From assembly GCA_013697245.1 (NCBI GenBank), contig JACCXH010000056.1:1-64000 (forward strand): a DNA stretch of 64,000 bases. The letters are read 5' to 3'. Positions 2,287 through 12,214 of the stretch are shown here, piece by piece; position 1 is the first letter of the stretch; each line of letters opens with the position of its first letter. Made by a program: the position numbers and the translations under genes. The stretch comes from Bacteroidota bacterium. GTDB taxonomy: Bacteria > Bacteroidota > Bacteroidia > B-17B0 > Aurantibacillaceae. The notes beneath the pieces were generated by a model, which made no database searches, was not told the origin of the DNA, and saw only the letters and a program-made list of their open reading frames with translations.

Positions 2287-2294
2287 TAGGTTTG
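2287..2294 (+). promoter_or_regulatory. -7 promoter element of the trp-aro operon
   Basis: TAGGTTTG is an exact match to the Bacteroidota -7 consensus TAnnTTTG and lies 9 bases before the leader-peptide start codon. No good -33 TTG/TTTG box is seen at the usual spacing. Transcription should begin around 2299-2301, giving a leader mRNA with almost no 5' untranslated bases before the leader ORF. Confidence 0.65.
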
Positions 2295-2303
2295 TACACG
2301 GAA

Positions 2304-2366
2304 ATGAAAAATAATAATGTAAATAAAATGTGGTGGTGGTTCGCAAATACAATTGTGAACAGCTAA
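2304..2366 (+). CDS. trpL: trp operon leader peptide
   Basis: A 20-residue ORF, MKNNNVNKMWWWFANTIVNS, with three consecutive TGG (Trp) codons at 2331-2339. Trp is normally the rarest residue, and this ORF sits directly upstream of an intrinsic terminator and of trpE, the classic architecture of ribosome-mediated attenuation. The stop codon (2364-2366) lies just after the sequence that can form the antiterminator. The peptide itself probably has no function beyond sensing charged tRNA-Trp. Confidence 0.9.
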   Translation: MKNNNVNKMWWWFANTIVNS

Positions 2367-2406
2367 ATTTATATTTACCTAAGGCATATTTCAAAGCCCG
2401 CTGTTC
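2339..2406 (+). promoter_or_regulatory. trp attenuator: 1:2 stem and 2:3 antiterminator
   Basis: Segment 1 (GTTCGCAA, 2339-2346), starting on the last Trp codon, pairs with segment 2 (TTGTGAAC, 2353-2360) through eight bases including one G-U. Segment 2 also contains GAACAGC (2357-2363), perfectly complementary to GCTGTTC (2400-2406), the 5' arm of the terminator hairpin. A ribosome stalled on the Trp codons would cover segment 1 and free segment 2 to form the antiterminator, so the operon is expressed when Trp-tRNA is scarce. When translation runs through, the terminator forms. Confidence 0.85.
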
Positions 2407-2424
2407 TGTAACAGCGGGCTTTTT
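2396..2424 (+). terminator. trp attenuator terminator (3:4)
   Basis: Perfect 10-bp stem (GCCCGCTGTT 2396-2405 with AACAGCGGGC 2410-2419), four-base loop CTGT, then TTTTT. It lies between trpL and trpE, 17 bases before the trpE start codon, so it must be bypassed for expression. Confidence 0.95.
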
Positions 2425-2441
2425 ATTTTAAACCAAGCGAC

Positions 2442-3887
2442 ATGATAGAATTAAAAACATACACAAAAACCATACTTGCCGATACTAAAACGCCAATCGG
2501 TATTTTTATGGCGCTAAGAGATATTTACCAAAAACCTCTTTTGCTAGAAAGTTCGGATTATAACAGTAAGCAAAACCATTATTCGTATTTATGCTTCCAG
2601 CCACTTGCCTCTTTTGAATTGTCAGGCCAGGTTTTAAAAACAGTTGTTGGTTCTGTAATTCAAAAACAAGCTCTTCCATCTTCAAACAGAACCTTGGTTC
2701 AGGAATTCATCAATTTTAAGGAGCAATTTATTTTTCAAGAGCTAAATTTTGGTTTTTGCACCGGTGGATTGTTTGGCTATAACAGTTTTGATGTGATAGA
2801 ATATTTTGAAGACATTACTTTTAGGCAAAAAGAGAATAAACAGCTAATACCGGATATTTTATATCATCTGTATTCTTTGATCTTGGTCTTTGACCATACA
2901 ACAAATAACCTACACATTATTTCTCATGCTTTTGATAACGAAACTGCCCAAAAACAATTATTCGAACTTAACGAAAACATACTAACCCAGCAGGTAACTG
3001 AATTTAATTTTAGCCCGGTAGGAGAAGAAAGAGCCAACCAAACTGATGATGAATTTATGGAGCTGGTTAATGTTGCAAAAGATCATTGCCAAAAAGGTGA
3101 TATCTTTCAAATGGTATTATCGCGCCAATTTTCGCAAGCCTACATTGGCGACGACTTTAATTTATACCGCGCGCTTAAGAATATTAATCCATCACCTTAT
3201 TTGTTCTATTTCGATACAGGCAGGTTTCGCTTGTTTGGTTCTTCGCCCGAAGCGCAACTGATCATTAAAAACAATAAAGCACAAATTAATCCAATTGCCG
3301 GCACTTATAAACGCAGTGCAAATAATACGGAAGATATCATTAACGCAAAAAAATTACTGGTTGACGAAAAAGAAAATGCCGAACATATGATGTTGGTTGA
3401 TCTTGCGAGAAATGATCTGAGCAAATATTGCACTGCTGTTGAACCTGTTTATTTACAACAAGTGCAGCTTTATTCGCATGTAATACACTTGGTAAGCAAA
3501 ATAGAAGGAGAGCTTCGGGCAGGCATTCATGCTTTTGAAGTGTTAGCGGGCTCATCACCTGCGGGTACATTATCGGGGGCACCAAAATACAAAGCCCTAC
3601 AGTTAATTGATAAATATGAACCAACATCGCGCGGTTATTATGGCGGTTCAATAGGATTTTTATCTGATAAGAACGAACTTAACCAGGCCATCATGATCCG
3701 TACTTTTTTAAGTAAGGATCATGTTCTTTATTACCAGGCGGGCGCAGGTATTGTTAACGCCAGCGATCCTGAGTCTGAAATGAACGAGATCTATAACAAA
3801 ATATCTGCCCTTAAAAAAGCCATTAAAGAGGCTCAAAAAATTAATAAAACCATATCCTCATACAGCCATGAAACTACTAATACTTGA
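2442..3887 (+). CDS. trpE: Anthranilate synthase component I
   Basis: 481 residues. It catalyses conversion of chorismate to anthranilate with ammonia supplied by TrpG, the first committed step of tryptophan synthesis. The C-terminal chorismate-binding domain is complete, with the signatures FGSSPEAQ, INPIAGTYKR, DEKENAEHMMLVDLARND, GTLSGAPKYKALQ and QAGAGIVNASDPESE. The N-terminal domain has LLESSD, the usual place of the tryptophan feedback site. The start ATG lies just after the attenuator. The 3' end overlaps trpG by 20 nt, suggesting translational coupling of the two subunits. Confidence 0.97.
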   Translation: MIELKTYTKTILADTKTPIGIFMALRDIYQKPLLLESSDYNSKQNHYSYLCFQPLASFELSGQVLKTVVGSVIQKQALPSSNRTLVQEFINFKEQFIFQELNFGFCTGGLFGYNSFDVIEYFEDITFRQKENKQLIPDILYHLYSLILVFDHTTNNLHIISHAFDNETAQKQLFELNENILTQQVTEFNFSPVGEERANQTDDEFMELVNVAKDHCQKGDIFQMVLSRQFSQAYIGDDFNLYRALKNINPSPYLFYFDTGRFRLFGSSPEAQLIIKNNKAQINPIAGTYKRSANNTEDIINAKKLLVDEKENAEHMMLVDLARNDLSKYCTAVEPVYLQQVQLYSHVIHLVSKIEGELRAGIHAFEVLAGSSPAGTLSGAPKYKALQLIDKYEPTSRGYYGGSIGFLSDKNELNQAIMIRTFLSKDHVLYYQAGAGIVNASDPESEMNEIYNKISALKKAIKEAQKINKTISSYSHETTNT

Positions 3888-4434
3888 TAATTACGACAGC
3901 TTTACTTACAATCTTGTTCATTTAGTCGAAAAAATGGGCAATATTAAGTTTGATGTCATTCGTAACGACAAAATTTCTTTAAAAGAAGTAAATGATTATT
4001 CTAAAATACTTTTATCGCCCGGCCCGGGCTTGCCAAAAGATTCAGGTATTATGCCCGAACTTTTAATGCAGTACCACAAAACCAAATCCATATTTGGAGT
4101 TTGCCTGGGCCTGCAAGCAATTGGTGAAACTTTTGGCGCTTCTTTAATGAACCTTGAAACCGTGTACCATGGCATTGCTACTCCTGTATACCTTCTTAAC
4201 GAGGATAAAATTTTTAAGGATTGTCCTAAAACATTTAATGCCGGTAGGTACCACTCGTGGGTAATTAAAAATGAAAATTTACCGGATGAATTGATCGTTA
4301 CCGCCATTGATGATAAAAATAATATTATGGCGGCTAAACATCGTACCTATGATGTAAGAGGCGTTCAGTTCCACCCTGAATCTATTTTATCGGAGCACGG
4401 AGAAACCATTCTACGAAATTGGCTTAGCGCCTGA
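3868..4434 (+). CDS. trpG: Anthranilate synthase component II (glutamine amidotransferase)
   Basis: 188 residues, a complete class I glutamine amidotransferase. NYDSFTYNLV lies at the start, the oxyanion-strand PGPG at 51-54, the nucleophilic Cys79 in GVCLGLQAIG, and the catalytic His169/Glu171 in HPES. It hydrolyses glutamine and channels ammonia to TrpE. In some bacteria the same subunit also serves aminodeoxychorismate synthase (PabA). No separate pabA is visible here. Confidence 0.97.
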   Translation: MKLLILDNYDSFTYNLVHLVEKMGNIKFDVIRNDKISLKEVNDYSKILLSPGPGLPKDSGIMPELLMQYHKTKSIFGVCLGLQAIGETFGASLMNLETVYHGIATPVYLLNEDKIFKDCPKTFNAGRYHSWVIKNENLPDELIVTAIDDKNNIMAAKHRTYDVRGVQFHPESILSEHGETILRNWLSA

Positions 4435-4484
4435 TCGTAAAAACATAATCATTCATCATTATTAATTTTAAAAAATTAAAACCA

Positions 4485-5462
4485 ATGTTTCAAAAACTTT
4501 GTAGCGGACATATTTTATCACAACAAGAAGCGCACGACCTGATGCTGGATATCGCTTCGCAAAAAATGAACGAATACCAATTGAGTATTTCTATTGGCAT
4601 CTATCAAACGCGGCATATTTCTATGCAGGAACTAAGCGGATTTAAAAATGCTTTAATGGATCTGTCAGTAAAAGTAGGCCTGCACAAACCCTGCATAGAT
4701 GTTTGTGGTACGGGTGGCGATAAAAAAAACACTTTCAATATTTCTACCCTATCTGCTTTTATTTTAGCGGCAGCAGGTGTTCCTGTTGCAAAACACGGCA
4801 ATTACGGCGCTTCAAGCGTGTCGGGTTCATCAGATGTTTTAAAACATTTCGGATATCAATTCAAAAGCGATCCCTCCGAGCTTAATTATGATCTTGAGAA
4901 ACATAATATGTGTTTTATACATGCACCTTTATTTCACCCTGCTTTAAAAATGGCCGCTCCTGTGAGAAAAAATATTGGCATAGGTACTTTTTTTAATTTG
5001 CTTGGCCCCCTTGTTAACCCGGCCGATCCACAATTCCGTTACATTGGCACATTTAATAGTAAAATAGCAAGAATGTATAATTACATTTTACAAAACTCGG
5101 GTCACAATTATACGATCGTACATTCTTTGGATGGTTATGATGAAATAAGCCTAACCTCAGAAACGAAACTATATACCAATTTAAAAGAAACGATGATAGA
5201 TAACTTTGATTTTAATTTTTCGAAATTGGCTGCAAACGATCTTTATGGCGGCGAAACAATTGCGGACGCTGCTGCAATTTTTTTAAATGTATTACAGAAC
5301 AAAGCTACTCGAGCACAAACCGAAGTGGTGCTTGCCAATACAGCTCTGGCAATGAATTGTTATTATCCTAACATCACACTTCATGACTGCATCGAAAGAT
5401 CAAAAGATGCTATTATTTCTAACAAAGCATATTCCTTATTTAAGAACCTGATTAATTCATAA
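4485..5462 (+). CDS. trpD: Anthranilate phosphoribosyltransferase
   Basis: 325 residues. It transfers the phosphoribosyl group of PRPP to anthranilate. The PRPP-binding loop CGTGGD is at about 74-79, followed by KNTFNIST. The anthranilate-site motifs KHGNYGASSVSGSSDVL and FLLGPLVNP-like NLLGPLVNPADP are intact. A gap of 50 nt separates it from trpG, the widest spacing inside the trp block, but no terminator or promoter is evident there. Confidence 0.96.
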   Translation: MFQKLCSGHILSQQEAHDLMLDIASQKMNEYQLSISIGIYQTRHISMQELSGFKNALMDLSVKVGLHKPCIDVCGTGGDKKNTFNISTLSAFILAAAGVPVAKHGNYGASSVSGSSDVLKHFGYQFKSDPSELNYDLEKHNMCFIHAPLFHPALKMAAPVRKNIGIGTFFNLLGPLVNPADPQFRYIGTFNSKIARMYNYILQNSGHNYTIVHSLDGYDEISLTSETKLYTNLKETMIDNFDFNFSKLAANDLYGGETIADAAAIFLNVLQNKATRAQTEVVLANTALAMNCYYPNITLHDCIERSKDAIISNKAYSLFKNLINS

Positions 5463-5465
5463 ACC

Positions 5466-6278
5466 ATGAACACACTTGAAAAAATAATAACACACAAAAG
5501 ATCAGAAGTAGAAGAAAATAAAAAACTTTATCCCGTTAAATTATTAGAACGCTCGCTTTATTTTAACTCTGTCCCTGTTTCGCTGGATAAATATTTAAAG
5601 CGGCAGGATAAAAGTGGCATTATTGCCGAAATAAAAAAACGATCCCCGTCAAAAGGCATCATCAATAACTATGTAAATGTAGAAAAAACATCAATTGGTT
5701 ATATGCAAGCAGGAGCAAGTGCAATTTCTGTACTTACCGATAAAACTTTTTTTGGCGGAACTAACCAGGATCTTAGCCTTGCCCGAAAATTTAATTTTTG
5801 CCCCATTTTAAGAAAAGATTTTATTGTGGATGAATATCAGATTATTGAAGCTAAATCTATTGGTGCCGATGCCATATTATTAATAGCAGCCTGTTTAAAC
5901 AAAAACGAAATTATTTTGTTGAGCGAACTGGCTGTGAGTTTAGGACTTGAAGTACTATTGGAGATACATGAAGAGGCTGACCTGGAAAAAATCCCAACGT
6001 CAATAACTATTGTTGGGGTAAATAACCGCGATCTTAAAACATTAAAAATAGATATGAATACAAGCTTTAGATTAATTGATAAACTGCCTAAAGAAAAAAC
6101 AAAGGTTGCCGAAAGTGGTATTGAAAGTGTTGAAAGCATACTACAATTAAGAGAAGCAGGTTATTCGGGATTTTTAATAGGTTCTTATTTTATGAAACAT
6201 CCCGAACCTTCTTTCGCCTGCAAAGAATTTATTTCTTTAATTAATAATGCTACTAAAAAATTAAGCAATGCTGATTAA
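5466..6278 (+). CDS. trpC: Indole-3-glycerol phosphate synthase
   Basis: 270 residues, a TIM-barrel enzyme that closes the indole ring. Active-site segments are visible: AEIKKRSPSKG near residue 54 (catalytic Lys), LTDKTFFGG, LRKDFIVDEYQI, a VGVNNRDLKT segment and AESGIES. It is encoded as a single-domain protein, not fused to TrpF as in Escherichia coli. The gene starts 3 nt after the trpD stop and overlaps trpF by 11 nt. Confidence 0.97.
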   Translation: MNTLEKIITHKRSEVEENKKLYPVKLLERSLYFNSVPVSLDKYLKRQDKSGIIAEIKKRSPSKGIINNYVNVEKTSIGYMQAGASAISVLTDKTFFGGTNQDLSLARKFNFCPILRKDFIVDEYQIIEAKSIGADAILLIAACLNKNEIILLSELAVSLGLEVLLEIHEEADLEKIPTSITIVGVNNRDLKTLKIDMNTSFRLIDKLPKEKTKVAESGIESVESILQLREAGYSGFLIGSYFMKHPEPSFACKEFISLINNATKKLSNAD

Positions 6279-6903
6279 GGTGTGTGGTTTAAATAACCGA
6301 GATAATATTATCACTATCTCAAAGATGGATATACAATTAATGGGGTTTATTTTTTATAAAGGATCGCCCCGTTATTTTAATAATGCATTAAGTTTTAATG
6401 AAGTAAGGCAAATTCCTAAAACAATAAAAAAAGTGGGTGTATTTGTAAATGAGCCTGTTTACAGCATTTTAAACACAGTAGCGCATTTCGATCTAGACAT
6501 GGTGCAACTTCATGGCGAGGAACCTGTGAAGGATTGCGAGCAACTTTTGCCGTTTGTAAAAGTTATCAAAACCATATCTATAAAGGACAAAGCCTCATTA
6601 AAAAGCCTGTCTAACTATACTTCTGTATGCGATCATTTTTTGTTTGATACCGCAACAGCAAATTATGGCGGAAGCGGAAACAGTTTTAACTGGAATTTAT
6701 TGCAAGAAATTAAAATAACTAAACCATTTTTTATCAGCGGGGGCATTTCTCCTAATAACTATAATGAGTTGGCGGGTTTAAAACTTAATAATTTTATTGG
6801 GATAGATGTGAACTCCAAATTTGAAGTAACCCCTGGGTTAAAAGACATTGAAAAAATTAATTTACTCTTAAAACAAAAACATCATGCAAGCGCAAATCAC
6901 TAA
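6268..6903 (+). CDS. trpF: Phosphoribosylanthranilate isomerase
   Basis: 211 residues, TIM-barrel isomerase acting between TrpD and TrpC. Signatures: KVCGLNN at the N-terminus with the general-base Cys, [32 protein letters not shown] with the catalytic Asp, and [11 protein letters not shown]. It overlaps trpC by 11 nt at the start and trpB by 20 nt at the end. Confidence 0.96.
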
Positions 6904-8077
6904 AGGCTATTCTATCAGCAAAAATGGTTATTATGGAAATTTTGGTGGTGCCTATATACCCGAATTGCTGTATAATAATGTAAACGAATTGGTTCAAAAT
7001 TATTTACAATTAACGCAAGACCCTGATTTTAATAAAGAGCTTAATCTTCTTTTAAAAGATTATGTGGGCAGGCCAAGCCCTTTATACTTTGCAAAAAAAT
7101 TGTCAAAAAAATACGGGGCAAAAATTTATTTAAAACGCGAAGATCTTAATCACACAGGTTCGCATAAAATAAATAACGCGCTTGGTCAGGCCTTGCTTGC
7201 AAAAAAATTAGGTAAGCAAAAAATAATTGCCGAAACGGGTGCAGGCCAGCACGGAGCTGCCGCTGCCACTGCCTGCGCTCTTTTAGGCTTAGAATGCACG
7301 GTGTTTATGGGCGAAGTGGACATTGAACGCCAGGCGCCAAACGTATCGCGAATGAAAATGCTGGGAGCAAAGATCATTCCGGCAACAAGCGGCACAAGAA
7401 CGTTAAAAGATGCTACTAACGAAGCCATTCGTTACTGGATAAACAATAACGATTCGTATTACCTTATAGGTTCTGTGGTTGGCCCGCACCCCTACCCCGA
7501 CCTTGTAACGCGCTTTCAAGCAATTATCAGCAAAGAAATAAAAGAACAATTGCTTACTGCTGAGGGTAAAGAAGATCCTGACTATGTATTAGCTTGCATT
7601 GGTGGCGGAAGCAATGCGGCCGGCGCATTTTACAATTTTATTGGTAATGAGCGCGTAAAATTAATTGGTATTGAAGCCGCAGGAAAAGGCTTAAATACCG
7701 AATATACTGCCGCGACTTTACAAAAAGGTTCATGTGGTATCATTCACGGAAGCAAAACATTTTTAATGCAAACGTACGACGGACAAATTACAGAACCTTA
7801 TAGCATTTCTGCGGGCCTGGATTATCCCGGTATTGGTCCGCTACACGCGCATTTACAAGAAACAAAACTGGCCCGGTATTTATCTGCAACAGATGAAGAA
7901 AGTTTAGCCGCAGCTTTTGAATTAATGCAGGAAGAAGGAATTATTCCGGCTTTAGAGAGCGCTCATGCATTTGCGGTCTTAAAAAAAATAGAATTTAAAG
8001 AAAATGAAGTAGTGGTGATCAACTTATCAGGCCGCGGTGATAAAGATCTGGATACGTATTTAAAACATTTTAATTAA
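6884..8077 (+). CDS. trpB: Tryptophan synthase beta chain
   Basis: 397 residues, the PLP enzyme that condenses indole with serine. NFGGAYIPE begins the fold, and the PLP-binding Lys lies in [22 protein letters not shown], the phosphate loop GGGSNAAG, and the C-terminal [13 protein letters not shown] are present. Length and motifs fit the TrpB1 class, which forms the alpha2-beta2 complex with the adjacent TrpA. It overlaps trpF and is followed by trpA after one base. Confidence 0.98.
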
Positions 8078-8078
8078 T

Positions 8079-8879
8079 ATGAAAACAAGATCAGAAATTT
8101 TATTTGAAAAAAAACCCAGCAACAATTTGTCGGTTTTTATTACTGCTGGTTTTCCAAACAAAGAAAGCCTTTTAGAGATTATTCCTTTATTAGAAAATTC
8201 AGATTGCGATATTATTGAGATCGGAATTCCTTTTTCAGACCCCTTGGCAGATGGCCCGGTAATTCAACAAAGCAGCGCAATCGCATTAAACAATGGCATG
8301 AATCTGGAATTGTTAATTAACCAGGTAAAGCAAGTGAGGCCTTTAATTTCTAAACCCATTATTTTAATGGGCTATTTAAATTCGCTTTTAAAATTTGGCA
8401 TTGAGCGTTTTTACGAAAGTTGTCATGAAGCCGGTGTAGATGGACTAATTATCCCTGACCTGCCATTACATGAGTTTAAAAATGAACATGAGCTGTATAT
8501 TAAAAAATATAACCTTGATTTTATTTTCTTGATCAGTCCAACAACTGAAAATAAACGGGCTTTAGAATTAGCAGCTAACAGCTCGGGTTTTTTGTATTTA
8601 GTTTCATCTAATTCTACCACCGGTAACATAAATGAGAATAAAACAGACCTCTCTGAAAAAGTAATGACACTAAAAAATGAGGGTTTAAAGATCCCAGTAT
8701 TAATTGGTTTTGGTATTAAGACCAGCAACGACTTTACAAAAGTGTGCAAATATGCAAATGGCGCTATCATTGGTTCTGCTTTTATTCAGATGATAAAAAA
8801 TTCAAACAACCTTCAAAAAGATATTCCGCAATTTATTCATAACCTTAAAACCAAAACTCATGATCATTCAATTAACTAA
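8079..8879 (+). CDS. trpA: Tryptophan synthase alpha chain
   Basis: 266 residues. It cleaves indole-3-glycerol phosphate and passes indole to TrpB. Catalytic Glu in IIEIGIPFSDPLADGP and the following Asp are present, as are VDGLIIPDLPLHE and the phosphate-binding IGFGIKTSND. Its last 20 nt overlap the DAHP synthase gene, so the trp block is coupled directly to the aro block. Confidence 0.97.
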   Translation: MKTRSEILFEKKPSNNLSVFITAGFPNKESLLEIIPLLENSDCDIIEIGIPFSDPLADGPVIQQSSAIALNNGMNLELLINQVKQVRPLISKPIILMGYLNSLLKFGIERFYESCHEAGVDGLIIPDLPLHEFKNEHELYIKKYNLDFIFLISPTTENKRALELAANSSGFLYLVSSNSTTGNINENKTDLSEKVMTLKNEGLKIPVLIGFGIKTSNDFTKVCKYANGAIIGSAFIQMIKNSNNLQKDIPQFIHNLKTKTHDHSIN

Positions 8880-9870
8880 TTCAATTACAGAAGACCAAAA
8901 AGTGACTTTATTTGAAAAATTAAATAAACATAAATTCGCTATTAACGAGGTAAATACGCAACTCGAAAAATATTTGGTATGTATTGGCAAAACCGAAATT
9001 GATATTCGCGAAATTGGTCATTTAGCAGGAATTAAAGATGTGCATATAGTTTCAGATAGCTATAAACTGGTAAGCAAAAAATGGAAAGTAAAAGATACCA
9101 GCATAGCACTTGGAAATGATATTTTTATTGGCAAAGATGCACCGTCTATTATGGCAGGTCCCTGTTCGGTAGAAAGCGAAGAGCAGATAGACAAGATCAT
9201 TATGCATTTGAACGAACAAAACATTAAAATAATAAGAGGAGGTGTTTTTAAACCAAGAAGCTCACCCTACGCTTTCAGAGGGTTGGGAATTGATGGCTTA
9301 AAAATGATGCATGAAAAATGCAAGCCATATAATATAAAAATAATCACCGAGGTAATGCAGGTTTCTCAAATAGAAGAAATGTTACCGTATGTGGATGTAT
9401 TTCAGGTTGGCGCAAGAAATTCGCAAAATTTTAATTTGTTGGATGCTTTAGGAGAAATAGATAAGCCTGTGCTTTTAAAAAGAGGTATCAGTGGCACAAT
9501 TGAAGAACTGTTATCATCGGCCGAATACGTATTTAGTAAAGGCAACGAAAAATTAATTTTATGCGAACGCGGCATTCGCACTTTTGAAACTGCCTACCGC
9601 AATACTTTTGATATAAATGCCATACAGGTATTAAAAGAAAAAACGCATTTGCCGGTAATTGCCGATCCATCGCACGGCGTTGGTATTCGCTCCTTTGTTC
9701 CAAAATTGGCGCTATCTGCCTTGCTCAGCGGAGCTGATGGCATTATTTATGAAGTGCACGAAAAGCCTGAAGAAGCTCTGTCAGATGGACAACAAACCCT
9801 TAATTTTATGGAATCGGCCAAACTGGTAGAAAAAATAAAATTACTTTATCAATCATTTAATTTCAATTAA
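8860..9870 (+). CDS. aroF: 3-deoxy-7-phosphoheptulonate (DAHP) synthase, type I-beta
   Basis: 336 residues. The first roughly 80 residues resemble the ferredoxin-like regulatory domain of Thermotoga-type enzymes. The remainder is the KDPG/KDO8P-synthase-like barrel with MAGPCSVESEEQ, RGGVFKPRSSPYAFRGLG, a metal-binding Cys in that first block, and IADPSHGVGIRSFVP. It makes the first intermediate of the shikimate pathway from PEP and erythrose 4-phosphate. It lacks the chorismate mutase domain often fused in other Bacteroidota. Its position after trpA puts pathway entry under trp attenuation. Confidence 0.94.
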   Translation: MIIQLTNSITEDQKVTLFEKLNKHKFAINEVNTQLEKYLVCIGKTEIDIREIGHLAGIKDVHIVSDSYKLVSKKWKVKDTSIALGNDIFIGKDAPSIMAGPCSVESEEQIDKIIMHLNEQNIKIIRGGVFKPRSSPYAFRGLGIDGLKMMHEKCKPYNIKIITEVMQVSQIEEMLPYVDVFQVGARNSQNFNLLDALGEIDKPVLLKRGISGTIEELLSSAEYVFSKGNEKLILCERGIRTFETAYRNTFDINAIQVLKEKTHLPVIADPSHGVGIRSFVPKLALSALLSGADGIIYEVHEKPEEALSDGQQTLNFMESAKLVEKIKLLYQSFNFN

Positions 9871-9878
9871 CTTTGGGT

Positions 9879-10940
9879 ATGTCTTTAATTAAAGCAAACG
9901 GATATAACATTGCCATTGGAAAAGACGCCTTAAAAACACTTTCGGCTTATTTAAAGAAAAGCAAATATTCCTCGTATTTTATTATTTGTGACGAGAATAC
10001 GATTCGTTTCTGTTTACCAAAATTAATAATGAGTTGCCCGGCATTAAAAGATGCTGAGATCCTAGAGTTGGAAAGTGGAGAAGAAAGTAAATCCATAGAA
10101 TTTAGTGCTCATATCTGGCAAACATTGATCGAGAATAAGGCCGATAAAAACTCGCTGATAATTAATTTAGGCGGCGGCGTGGTAAGCGACCTTGGTGGCT
10201 TTTGTGCTTCTACATATAAAAGAGGAATAGATTTTATAAATGTTCCTACTTCCTTATTAGCCATGGCCGACGCCAGTGTTGGCGGAAAAACAGGGATCGA
10301 CTTTGCAGGCTTAAAAAATTCTATTGGCACATTTGCACAACCTAAATCCGTGTTTGTCAATCCCGGGTTTTTAGAAACCTTATCACCAAGACATTATAAA
10401 AATGGTTTGGCCGAGATTTTTAAAATAGCCATTATAAGCGATAAAAAATTCTTTGAGGAATTAAAAAACTTAAAAGGCGATCATAAAATAGAATCTATTA
10501 TAACTAAAAGCATTGCTTTAAAAAACAAACTTGTTTTAAAAGATCCATTTGATAAAGGTACACGCAACATTCTCAATTTTGGCCATACAATTGGTCACGC
10601 CATTGAGTCGCTTTTATTAGGAACCACGAACGAATTACTACATGGCGAAGCAGTTGTTATTGGTATGATGATAGAAAGCTATATTGCATTTGATAAAAAA
10701 ATGCTGAGCAAAAAAGAGTTGGATGAAATAATAAGCGTTCTGAAAAAAGAATTTGCTCCACAAAACATCCTTCATTTAAATTTTGTTTCGATGATAGAGT
10801 TATTAAAGAATGATAAAAAAACCTTCAAAAATAAATTCAAGTTGGCTTTAATAAATAAGATCGGCGCTTGCAAATATAATTTAGAGGCAAGCGAGGCGCA
10901 AATAAAAAAGGCTATTGATCTTTATAACTCAACTATATAA
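9879..10940 (+). CDS. aroB: 3-dehydroquinate synthase
   Basis: 353 residues from the ATG at 9879, preferred over a TTG two codons upstream. It converts DAHP to 3-dehydroquinate using NAD and a divalent metal. Signatures: NLGGGVVSDLGGFCAS, VPTSLLAMADASVGGKTGID, FNPGFL-like VNPGFLETL, NFGHTIGHAIESL and HGEAVVIGM. It lies 8 nt after the DAHP synthase stop, and its stop codon shares a base with the aroA start. Confidence 0.96.
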   Translation: MSLIKANGYNIAIGKDALKTLSAYLKKSKYSSYFIICDENTIRFCLPKLIMSCPALKDAEILELESGEESKSIEFSAHIWQTLIENKADKNSLIINLGGGVVSDLGGFCASTYKRGIDFINVPTSLLAMADASVGGKTGIDFAGLKNSIGTFAQPKSVFVNPGFLETLSPRHYKNGLAEIFKIAIISDKKFFEELKNLKGDHKIESIITKSIALKNKLVLKDPFDKGTRNILNFGHTIGHAIESLLLGTTNELLHGEAVVIGMMIESYIAFDKKMLSKKELDEIISVLKKEFAPQNILHLNFVSMIELLKNDKKTFKNKFKLALINKIGACKYNLEASEAQIKKAIDLYNSTI

Positions 10941-12214
10941 TGCTTTTACTTTCAGCGCCCGAACATATTTTAAGCACAACCATAAAACTTGCCGGTTCTA
11001 AAAGTATTAGCAACCGTTTATTGATCTTAAATAATGTGTTAGATCTAAATTTAAGCTTAGAAAATAATTCTACCTCCGAAGATACTTTACTATTACAAAA
11101 TGCTTTTGATCAAATAAAAAATAAAGATCATGCTACAATAGATATTCATCATGCGGGCACCGATATGCGTTTTTTAACTGCATTATTATCTGCAAAAAAA
11201 GGTGACTGGATCCTTACCGGCTCTGATCGTATGAAACAAAGGCCAATTGGCGAATTGGTAAACGCATTAAGAACTTTAGGGGCAGAGGTTGACTATTTAG
11301 AAAAAGAAAATTTCCCGCCTCTAAAAATTAAAGGAAAAAAATTAAAAGGTGGAAAACTCGAAATTGATGGAAGTATTAGCAGCCAGTTTGTTTCTGCCTT
11401 ATTATTAATTTCTCCAACCTTTGAAAACGGATTGGAGCTTACCTTGAAGAACGAAATTGTCTCCTGGCCCTATGTATTGATGACATTAGATCTGCTTAGC
11501 GAATTTGGGTCAAAAGTATCAACTGTTTTAAATACTATCCATGTTTCGCAGTCAGATTCAAAGTTCAAAGTTCAAGATTCTCAAATATTCAATGTTGAAT
11601 CTGATTGGTCTGCCGCATCTTATTGGTATAGCATTGTAGCTTTAAGTAAAAAGGCAGAGATCACTTTAGTGGGCTTAAAAAAGTCTTCTTCTCAGGGCGA
11701 TTCTGTTTTGCCCGAAATTTATAAGCAACTTGGTGTTTCATCACAATTTATGAACGAAGGATTGATGCTTACAAAAAGCAATAGAGTTGACACTTATTTT
11801 GAATATGATTTTACCAATTGTCCAGATCTCGCGCAAACAATTGCCGTTACTTGTTTTGGACTTGGAATAAAAGCAAAATTAACCGGCCTTAAAACTTTAA
11901 AAATTAAAGAAACCGATAGAATATTGGCTTTAAAAACAGAGCTCGAAAAATTTGGGGCTCTTGTAAGTATTTCAGAAAATTCGTTGGAGATAAAAGACTC
12001 AGGACTCAAGACAAAAGACAAACTGCCGACTGCCGACTGCCAGGTTATAAGCATAAAAACATACAATGACCATAGGATGGCTATGAGCTTTACCCCGCTG
12101 GCATTGGTTTTTGGAGCCATAAACATTCTAAATCCTGAAGTAGTTTCTAAATCTTATCCTTTATTTTGGGAAGATTTGAAATCAGTTGGTTTTAGCGTAA
12201 ATTTGCTGCCATAA
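10940..12214 (+). CDS. aroA: 3-phosphoshikimate 1-carboxyvinyltransferase (EPSP synthase)
   Basis: 424 residues. It transfers enolpyruvyl from PEP to shikimate 3-phosphate. Key segments: AGSKSISNRLLILN, HHAGTDMRFLTALLS, the RPIGELV loop, SSQFVSALLL, SDWSAASYWY, KETDRILALKTELEKFG and TYNDHRMAMSFTPLAL. Two low-complexity in-frame insertions are visible, around 11554-11600 and 11996-12043, where short DNA units repeat (AAGTTC, and CTGCCGA). They fall before the SDWSAA segment and before the TYNDHR segment and look like tolerated loop insertions. The frame is intact throughout, so the enzyme should be functional. Confidence 0.95.
   Translation: MLLLSAPEHILSTTIKLAGSKSISNRLLILNNVLDLNLSLENNSTSEDTLLLQNAFDQIKNKDHATIDIHHAGTDMRFLTALLSAKKGDWILTGSDRMKQRPIGELVNALRTLGAEVDYLEKENFPPLKIKGKKLKGGKLEIDGSISSQFVSALLLISPTFENGLELTLKNEIVSWPYVLMTLDLLSEFGSKVSTVLNTIHVSQSDSKFKVQDSQIFNVESDWSAASYWYSIVALSKKAEITLVGLKKSSSQGDSVLPEIYKQLGVSSQFMNEGLMLTKSNRVDTYFEYDFTNCPDLAQTIAVTCFGLGIKAKLTGLKTLKIKETDRILALKTELEKFGALVSISENSLEIKDSGLKTKDKLPTADCQVISIKTYNDHRMAMSFTPLALVFGAINILNPEVVSKSYPLFWEDLKSVGFSVNLLP
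11554..11600 (+). repeat. Short tandem-type repeat inserted in aroA (first)
   Basis: GATTCAAAGTTCAAAGTTCA and the following bases are iterations of a TTCAAAG-like unit, unlike the surrounding coding sequence. It adds about 16 residues (SDSKFKVQDSQ region) without shifting frame. Confidence 0.55.
11996..12043 (+). repeat. Short tandem-type repeat inserted in aroA (second)
   Basis: GACTCA and AGACAAA units are followed by two and a half copies of CTGCCGA. The stretch encodes a residue run containing KTKDKLPTADCQ just before the conserved TYNDHR motif and keeps the reading frame. Confidence 0.6.

Follow-up and report, generated by a model that had tools for sequence, protein, structure and literature searches.

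The trp leader and the operon it precedes

The window (the whole stretch of DNA analysed here, 64,000 nucleotides from a Bacteroidota bacterium not in culture) contains a tryptophan operon that begins with trpE and, upstream of it, a leader region with a promoter element, a short Trp-rich open reading frame (ORF) and an intrinsic terminator (Table 1). Direct reading bears out the original prediction of a 20-residue leader with three consecutive TGG codons behind a promoter, and the full set of parts drawn there is confirmed in the sequence. Both predicted pairings exist: helix 1:2 has 8 pairs, one of them G-U, and helix 2:3 has 7 Watson-Crick pairs. The terminator, predicted as a 10-bp hairpin with a U-run, is present too; its stem is 13 bp (2393–2405 with 2410–2422) when the A-U foot is counted and 10 bp when it is not. 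Its loop occupies 2406–2409, and the stem is followed by TTATTTTA.

RNA spanning 2300–2432 has a folding energy of −38.6 kcal/mol, versus a mean of −22.5 for shuffled sequences (z −4.4; 0 of 200 shuffles equally low). Between 2000 and 2700, one terminator-like site is observed versus 0.4 expected. When ORFs of at least 150 aa were called mechanically on both strands of the window (n = 53), a tandem-Trp short ORF and a terminator within 700 nt upstream were found for one only, and that one is trpE. The promoter element TAGGTTTG lies 9 nt from the leader ATG by direct reading. A scan of the 2000–2700 region gave no sigma-70-type site on the plus strand, as expected with a TAnnTTTG promoter, and no clear −33 element was found for TAGGTTTG.

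Table 1. Features of the trp leader region and operon, in window coordinates.
Feature	Position	Strand	Basis
−7 element TAGGTTTG of the trp attenuator promoter (Bacteroidota TAnnTTTG)	2287..2294	+	read in sequence
Leader peptide ORF, MKNNNVNKMWWWFANTIVNS*, 20 aa; ATG 2304–2306, TAA 2364–2366	2304..2366	+	direct reading
Outer helix of the 1:2 domain, 5′ arm GTAAATA (codons 6 to 8)	2319..2325	+	centroid fold, energy test, RF01692 alignment
Sensor, TGG TGG TGG (leader codons 10–12)	2331..2339	+	direct reading
Segment 1, GTTCGCAA; partner 2353–2360	2339..2346	+	fold, family alignment, swap test
Segment 2; 2353–2360 (TTGTGAAC) pairs with segment 1, 2357–2363 (GAACAGC) with segment 3	2353..2363	+	family pairing, mask folding
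Outer helix of the 1:2 domain, 3′ arm TATTTAC	2372..2378	+	centroid fold, energy test, RF01692 alignment
GGC element inside the 2:3 antiterminator; potential partner GCC 2396–2398 (foot of terminator arm)	2383..2385	+	duplex test
Terminator 3:4 (stem 2393–2422) and T-rich tail	2393..2428	+	terminator scan, family alignment
Segment 3 (GCTGTTC); partner 2357–2363	2400..2406	+	2:3 pairing in 96.3% of family cells
trpE (anthranilate synthase component I), first operon gene	2442..3887	+	NCBIfam TIGR00564, 415 bits
trpG, trpD, trpC, trpF, trpB, trpA, DAHP synthase, aroB, aroA	3868..12214	+	NCBIfam

For trpE, TIGR00564 is the top of 26 matches, with a score below the curated cut-off of 518 bits; among the families listed, none names trpE, trpF or aroA at its curated cut-off. 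From trpG to aroA, neighbouring genes overlap or lie 1–50 nt apart. In 12 hand-picked relatives, within the sequence stretch fetched for each, trpE, trpG, trpD, trpC and DAHP synthase are present in all 12, trpF, trpB and trpA in 11, and aroB together with aroA in 8. The closest named record is the Bacteroidota metagenome assembly UBA2475, whose TrpE is 87% identical.

The trp cluster includes, at 8860–12214 of the window, DAHP synthase, aroB and the one clear aroA that this genome has; tatC begins 1 nt downstream. The genome assembly (74 contigs, 4.44 Mb) has, besides this aroA, one weak second match of 44.9 bits. Family searches of the same genome returned no match for leuA or prephenate dehydratase (PDT), and a match below cut-off for prephenate dehydrogenase (PDH_N). 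The aromatic route in this organism may therefore serve mainly for tryptophan, in which case tryptophan control of the aro genes would be fitting. A trp switch at this position would also control DAHP synthase, aroB and the genome's only clear aroA.

Conservation within the family

The tryptophan pathway is patchily distributed in the family: TrpE (E ≤ 1e-60) was found in 30 of the 87 genomes sampled, and the order-level sample consists of the identical 87. A tandem-Trp leader with a terminator precedes trpE at 29 of these 30 loci, namely 28 loci plus L108 in genome G064; at the thirtieth, L030, the sequence starts inside the gene and has no upstream region. With G064/L108 and L030 set aside, a leader ATG, tandem Trp codons and a nearby stop are found at 28 of 28 loci, each with a strong intrinsic terminator after the leader.

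We aligned 25 of the leaders (alignment A1), excluding L020, L028 and L031 as shorter or divergent and L029 and L030 because the full gene start is missing; L011 was trimmed to an inner ATG. The Trp codons, which had been predicted to be kept in relatives, are: all 25 aligned members have tandem TGG at codons 10–11, followed by a codon for W, C, P or L. Spacing is similarly fixed, with the leader stop at codon 20 or 21 and the terminator starting 26–30 nt downstream of the stop in every aligned member. Leaders of 19 and 20 aa are exactly one codon apart, and five rows are shorter by that codon. Outside the Trp run, leader residues are similar in most family members (M-K, V/L-N-N/K, V-N-S).

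A covariance model (R1) built on the 25 aligned loci and run over the 87 genomes finds 28 places at E ≤ 2.2e-11, comprising the 25 training loci and three others: before trpE in G064 and in G030, and before a trpF-like gene in G067. The last of these (L149, G067:C26, about 566–1315) is a family trp leader element in front of a trpF-like gene, whose match of 72.9 bits is below cut-off. G067 has no TrpE match at 1e-60; here the trp switch has apparently persisted after most of the operon was lost. In G030, a second, divergent Trp leader, MKTHLNTNLFWWPADSYNREHWH, with a terminator lies at 153–277 of L268 (G030:C227:16300–18500; E 1.3e-5), before trpF-like and trpB-like genes, while trpE has its own leader; the trp operon of G030 is split, with one Trp leader per part. 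In the genome of the window, the R1 search gives no further trp-type leader below E 0.19.

There are 33 weaker R1 matches (E 1.3e-5 to 0.009), four of which were inspected; the strongest of them is the second leader of G030. Those in G025, G074 and G069 were rejected as trp leaders, the terminators standing behind longer ORFs, and we regard the weak matches as mostly chance products (three of the four inspected). In L020 (G030:C234) the leader has 16 aa and its stop codon runs into the beginning of segment 2; segment 2 is retained. L031 (G059), with a leader unrelated in sequence, shows a 10-bp 2:3 pairing (p = 0.005).

Distribution across Bacteroidota

Two samples were examined beyond the family. 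The named set comprises 57 loci (L069–L125) chosen by TrpE similarity, 10 of them the family's own; among the 47 others, tandem Trp codons and a terminator occur at 44. The exceptions are L119, with no leader, L105, where the scan found no terminator, and L094, with a W-C-W leader. The phylum sample, less biased than the named set, has TrpE in 211 of 247 genomes that are at least 90% complete. Within the same class as the window, taken to be Bacteroidia, the scan covered each of the 55 other loci: a tandem-Trp leader and terminator precede trpE at 47, and a tandem-Trp ORF alone at 5. The scan found no attenuator at 8 of the 55, of which 3 are without any tandem-Trp ORF. In other classes, 34 of 155 loci were scanned; leader and terminator occur at 10, one of them doubtful (L251), and the ORF alone at 11. 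The reverse-strand control gave leader plus terminator at 0 of 89. Because ribosome-mediated attenuation needs a ribosome close behind the polymerase, a tandem-Trp attenuator before trpE at 47 of 55 class loci constitutes genomic evidence for transcription-translation coupling in this phylum.

In a Bacteroidales assembly, two trp leader and terminator units stand in tandem before trpE (L079, JANQHE010000020.1, 5677–5976); they are possibly a double attenuator.

Leaders for other amino acids in the genome, which the original prediction had proposed to look for, are represented by one upstream of hisG. Here (L184, G000:C62) a GTG-start, His-rich ORF, VKTNTHIHPHHNLQQVGCACIVF, and a terminator lie about 310 to 180 nt upstream of the HisG domain match. 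A His-rich short ORF precedes hisG at 13 of 14 loci scanned. HisG was found in 9 of 16 family genomes (25 genomes searched in all), and amino-acid synthesis is patchy in the family (TrpE 30/87, HisG 9/16).

Pairing and covariation of the helices

Helices 1:2 and 3:4 are paired in 89.7% of the cells of the family alignment, versus 36–59% in slid controls, and two-sided changes occur in 8 of their 21 pairs, versus a shuffle mean of 3.8, with 0 of 500 shuffles reaching 8. Helix 2:3 is paired in 96.3% of cells (slid controls 25–49%), but few of its pairs change on both sides: 2 of 9, a number reached in 71 of 500 shuffles, and the control slid by +2 has 3. This scarcity may be expected of a segment that has two pairing partners and is itself coding. 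The originally proposed check for covariation across relatives thus finds helices kept and compensatory changes present, more for 1:2 and 3:4 than for 2:3. Counts of further pair types do not rise above shuffles, either for 1:2 and 3:4 (161 of 500) or for 2:3 (146 of 500).

Partners were also swapped between loci. For 1:2, native partners pair at −9.2 kcal/mol versus −5.9 when swapped, and the native partner is the better one at 27 of 28 loci; swapping weakens the outer helix at 21 of 28 loci and 3:4 at 28 of 28. We judged the outer helix by an energy test because the region after the stop codon aligns in differing registers, and obtained p ≤ 0.05 at 10 of 28 family loci.

Helix 2:3 engages the upper terminator stem, and the foot stays free unless it is blocked by the GGC element. 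Of the 28 family members, 13 give p ≤ 0.05 for a duplex of GGC or an AGGC-like element with the terminator foot, and the other 15 give no significant duplex; the element is essentially absent in L011, L022, L025, L026, L028 and L031. L017 and L018 have AGACTT at this place and AAGTCC as the terminator foot. The element may act within the antiterminator, as its inner part, and so block the foot.

The antiterminator pairing 2:3 itself reaches p ≤ 0.05 at 21 of 28 family loci (L028 is not significant, p = 0.71) and at 6 of 10 loci from other classes. The counts are lower in the named set (20 of 44) and among class loci (11 of 47), so support for the detailed attenuator fold is confined to the family.

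Promoter spacing and a possible near-leaderless start

Among the 27 family leaders that have at least 30 nt of upstream sequence, 25 have a TAnnTTTG that ends 7–10 nt short of the ATG. With the gap counted as the smallest over in-frame ATGs, the motif lies within 10 nt of the ATG in 26 of 43 named leaders, where the commonest gap is 5 nt. Class leaders form two groups, with gaps of at most 10 nt in 20 of 47 and of 16–20 nt in 19 of 47. As a baseline, 3 of 55 window ORFs have TAnnTTTG 4–10 nt upstream. This motif is termed the −7 element in work on Bacteroides thetaiotaomicron, and transcription is therefore predicted to start a few bases 5′ of the leader ATG; the same source gives about 3.7% as the share of 5′ UTRs under 10 nt in that species (PMC7366714). 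We suggest, tentatively, that the trp attenuator might be near-leaderless, with a predicted start a few bases from the AUG and ribosomes loading at the 5′ end without a Shine-Dalgarno sequence, an arrangement that could set the timing between ribosome and polymerase. Bacteroidota are not known to rely on Shine-Dalgarno pairing.

Ribosome position and the probable mechanism of the switch

We folded the leader RNAs of 27 loci (L028 excluded) as transcripts ending before segment 4, with ribosome-covered bases removed. In free RNA, the median number of expected 2:3 pairs is 0.04, although 2:3 also forms (more than 5 expected pairs) in 5 of the 27: L010, L013, L017, L021 and L031. With a ribosome at the first Trp codon the median is 8.2, and at least 5 pairs are expected at 26 of 27 loci, L020 having about 1. 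At the last Trp codon the median is 8.8, with L011 and L020 near 1. With the ribosome at the stop codon the number is 0 in all 27, a result that is partly trivial, segment 2 being masked by construction. When the full RNA is folded to equilibrium, the terminator prevails even with a stalled ribosome (mean 0.92 of stem pairs), L031 being the only exception. Since equilibrium favours the terminator, switching must be under kinetic control, with 2:3 forming first.

The computations thus show the individual parts, how far they are conserved and change together, and how 2:3 formation in folding varies with where the ribosome stands. On this basis we hold with high confidence that the element is a ribosome-mediated transcription attenuator controlling the trp operon. 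Through this RNA switch the ribosome very probably senses tryptophan and sets whether the operon is on or off. The originally predicted mechanism, a classic trp attenuator, appears well supported by conservation, compensatory changes, fixed spacing and mask folding.

From these parts we infer where transcription starts, that the leader is translated, that ribosome and polymerase are coupled, that transcription terminates and that the system responds to tryptophan. RNA polymerase would start just 3′ of TAGGTTTG, and a ribosome would load on the leader ORF near the 5′ end. When charged tRNA-Trp is scarce, this ribosome would stall at codons 10–12 and mask segment 1; segment 2, which begins some 20–26 nt past the first base of the leading Trp codon, would stay free to capture segment 3 while segment 4 is still to be synthesized. 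This would keep the terminator from forming and let transcription run on into trpE and the genes behind it. When tryptophan is plentiful, the ribosome would reach the stop codon directly behind segment 2 and cover that segment, whereupon 3:4 would form and transcription would stop near 2424–2428. If the leader is not translated at all, the long 1:2 hairpin would likewise favour the terminator.

It is also conceivable, though improbable, that, with a translated leader and a real terminator, the main control lies elsewhere, in Rho action or mRNA decay tied to leader translation or in translational coupling to trpE, with 2:3 secondary. The equilibrium folds, in which 26 of 27 members form the terminator in all ribosome states, would suit such control, as would the lack of significance of 2:3 at most loci outside the family. 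However, 2:3 is preserved across nearly all family cells and is switched by ribosome position in the mask folding, and a strong intrinsic terminator stands behind each of the 28 family leaders. We consider it very improbable that the leader peptide acts in trans besides attenuating, as has been reported for peTrpL of Sinorhizobium meliloti (PMC7298713). The likeness of residues outside the Trp run in most family members might hint at such a role, but those codons fall in the outer helix and segment 2, where RNA pairing explains their conservation, and leaders from other parts of the phylum have little in common apart from the Trp run. The chance that the hairpin is a constitutive terminator or 5′-end feature and the Trp-rich ORF accidental or vestigial is negligible: the combination of leader and terminator occurs at 0 of 52 other window ORFs and in 0 of 89 reverse-strand regions, and the ATG, tandem Trp codons and nearby stop are kept at 28 family loci.

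Relation to known leaders

At gathering thresholds, no Rfam family matches in the window, and neither these scans nor permissive ones gave a TRAP or T-box family there; 2280–2460 has no match in the phage collection. An undescribed class of RNA was considered and rejected, the permissive scan having returned RF01692, Bacteroid-trp (Bacteroidete tryptophan peptide leader RNA), which has the same phylum and, by name, the same gene context. RF01692 aligns over its full length (model 1–131) to 2284–2405 of the window in that scan, and the two have in common the AUG, the Trp codons, a long hairpin with a GUAAAUA arm and the start of the terminator arm. The score is 34.4 bits, below the gathering threshold of 49. 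That threshold is reached by 0 of 20 family loci scanned and by 5 of 34 Bacteroidota trpE loci scanned outside the family (L111, L154, L155, L156, L202).

The window also resembles RF00513, Trp_leader, in its tandem Trp codons, helix 1:2 and a 3:4 terminator (GCCCGC/GCGGGC) with a U-run, scoring 26.7 bits over 2325–2427, below the gathering cut-off of 41; of 20 family loci scanned, one (L010, 42.4) passes it. Unlike RF00513, the window has segment 2 within the leader ORF, ahead of its stop codon, and a TAnnTTTG promoter close to the ATG. The trpL of E. coli encodes a 14-aa leader and has a 5′ UTR with a Shine-Dalgarno sequence.

The original prediction implied that an attenuator of this type would be new for Bacteroidota, and here it does not hold. 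The class is already covered by RF01692, listed in Table 1 of Weinberg et al. 2010 (PMC2864571), and a 2021 transcriptome paper on Flavobacterium psychrophilum, likewise a member of Bacteroidota, gives strong clues of leader-peptide attenuation, although its main text contains neither trp nor tryptophan (PMC9723704). Actinobacterial trp attenuators are described with the same elements, leader peptides with a UGG doublet or triplet ahead of trp operons together with a terminator and antiterminator, but in another phylum and with other sequences (PMC1262725). The attenuator in the window is thus ordinary in kind and sound, and sits on an unlisted branch. What is new here is that divergent branch, which RF01692 did not detect at any of the 20 family loci scanned, and its wider spread; new too are the promoter 7–10 nt from the leader start and the His leader in the same genome. 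As RF01692 misses this branch, annotation under-reports it.
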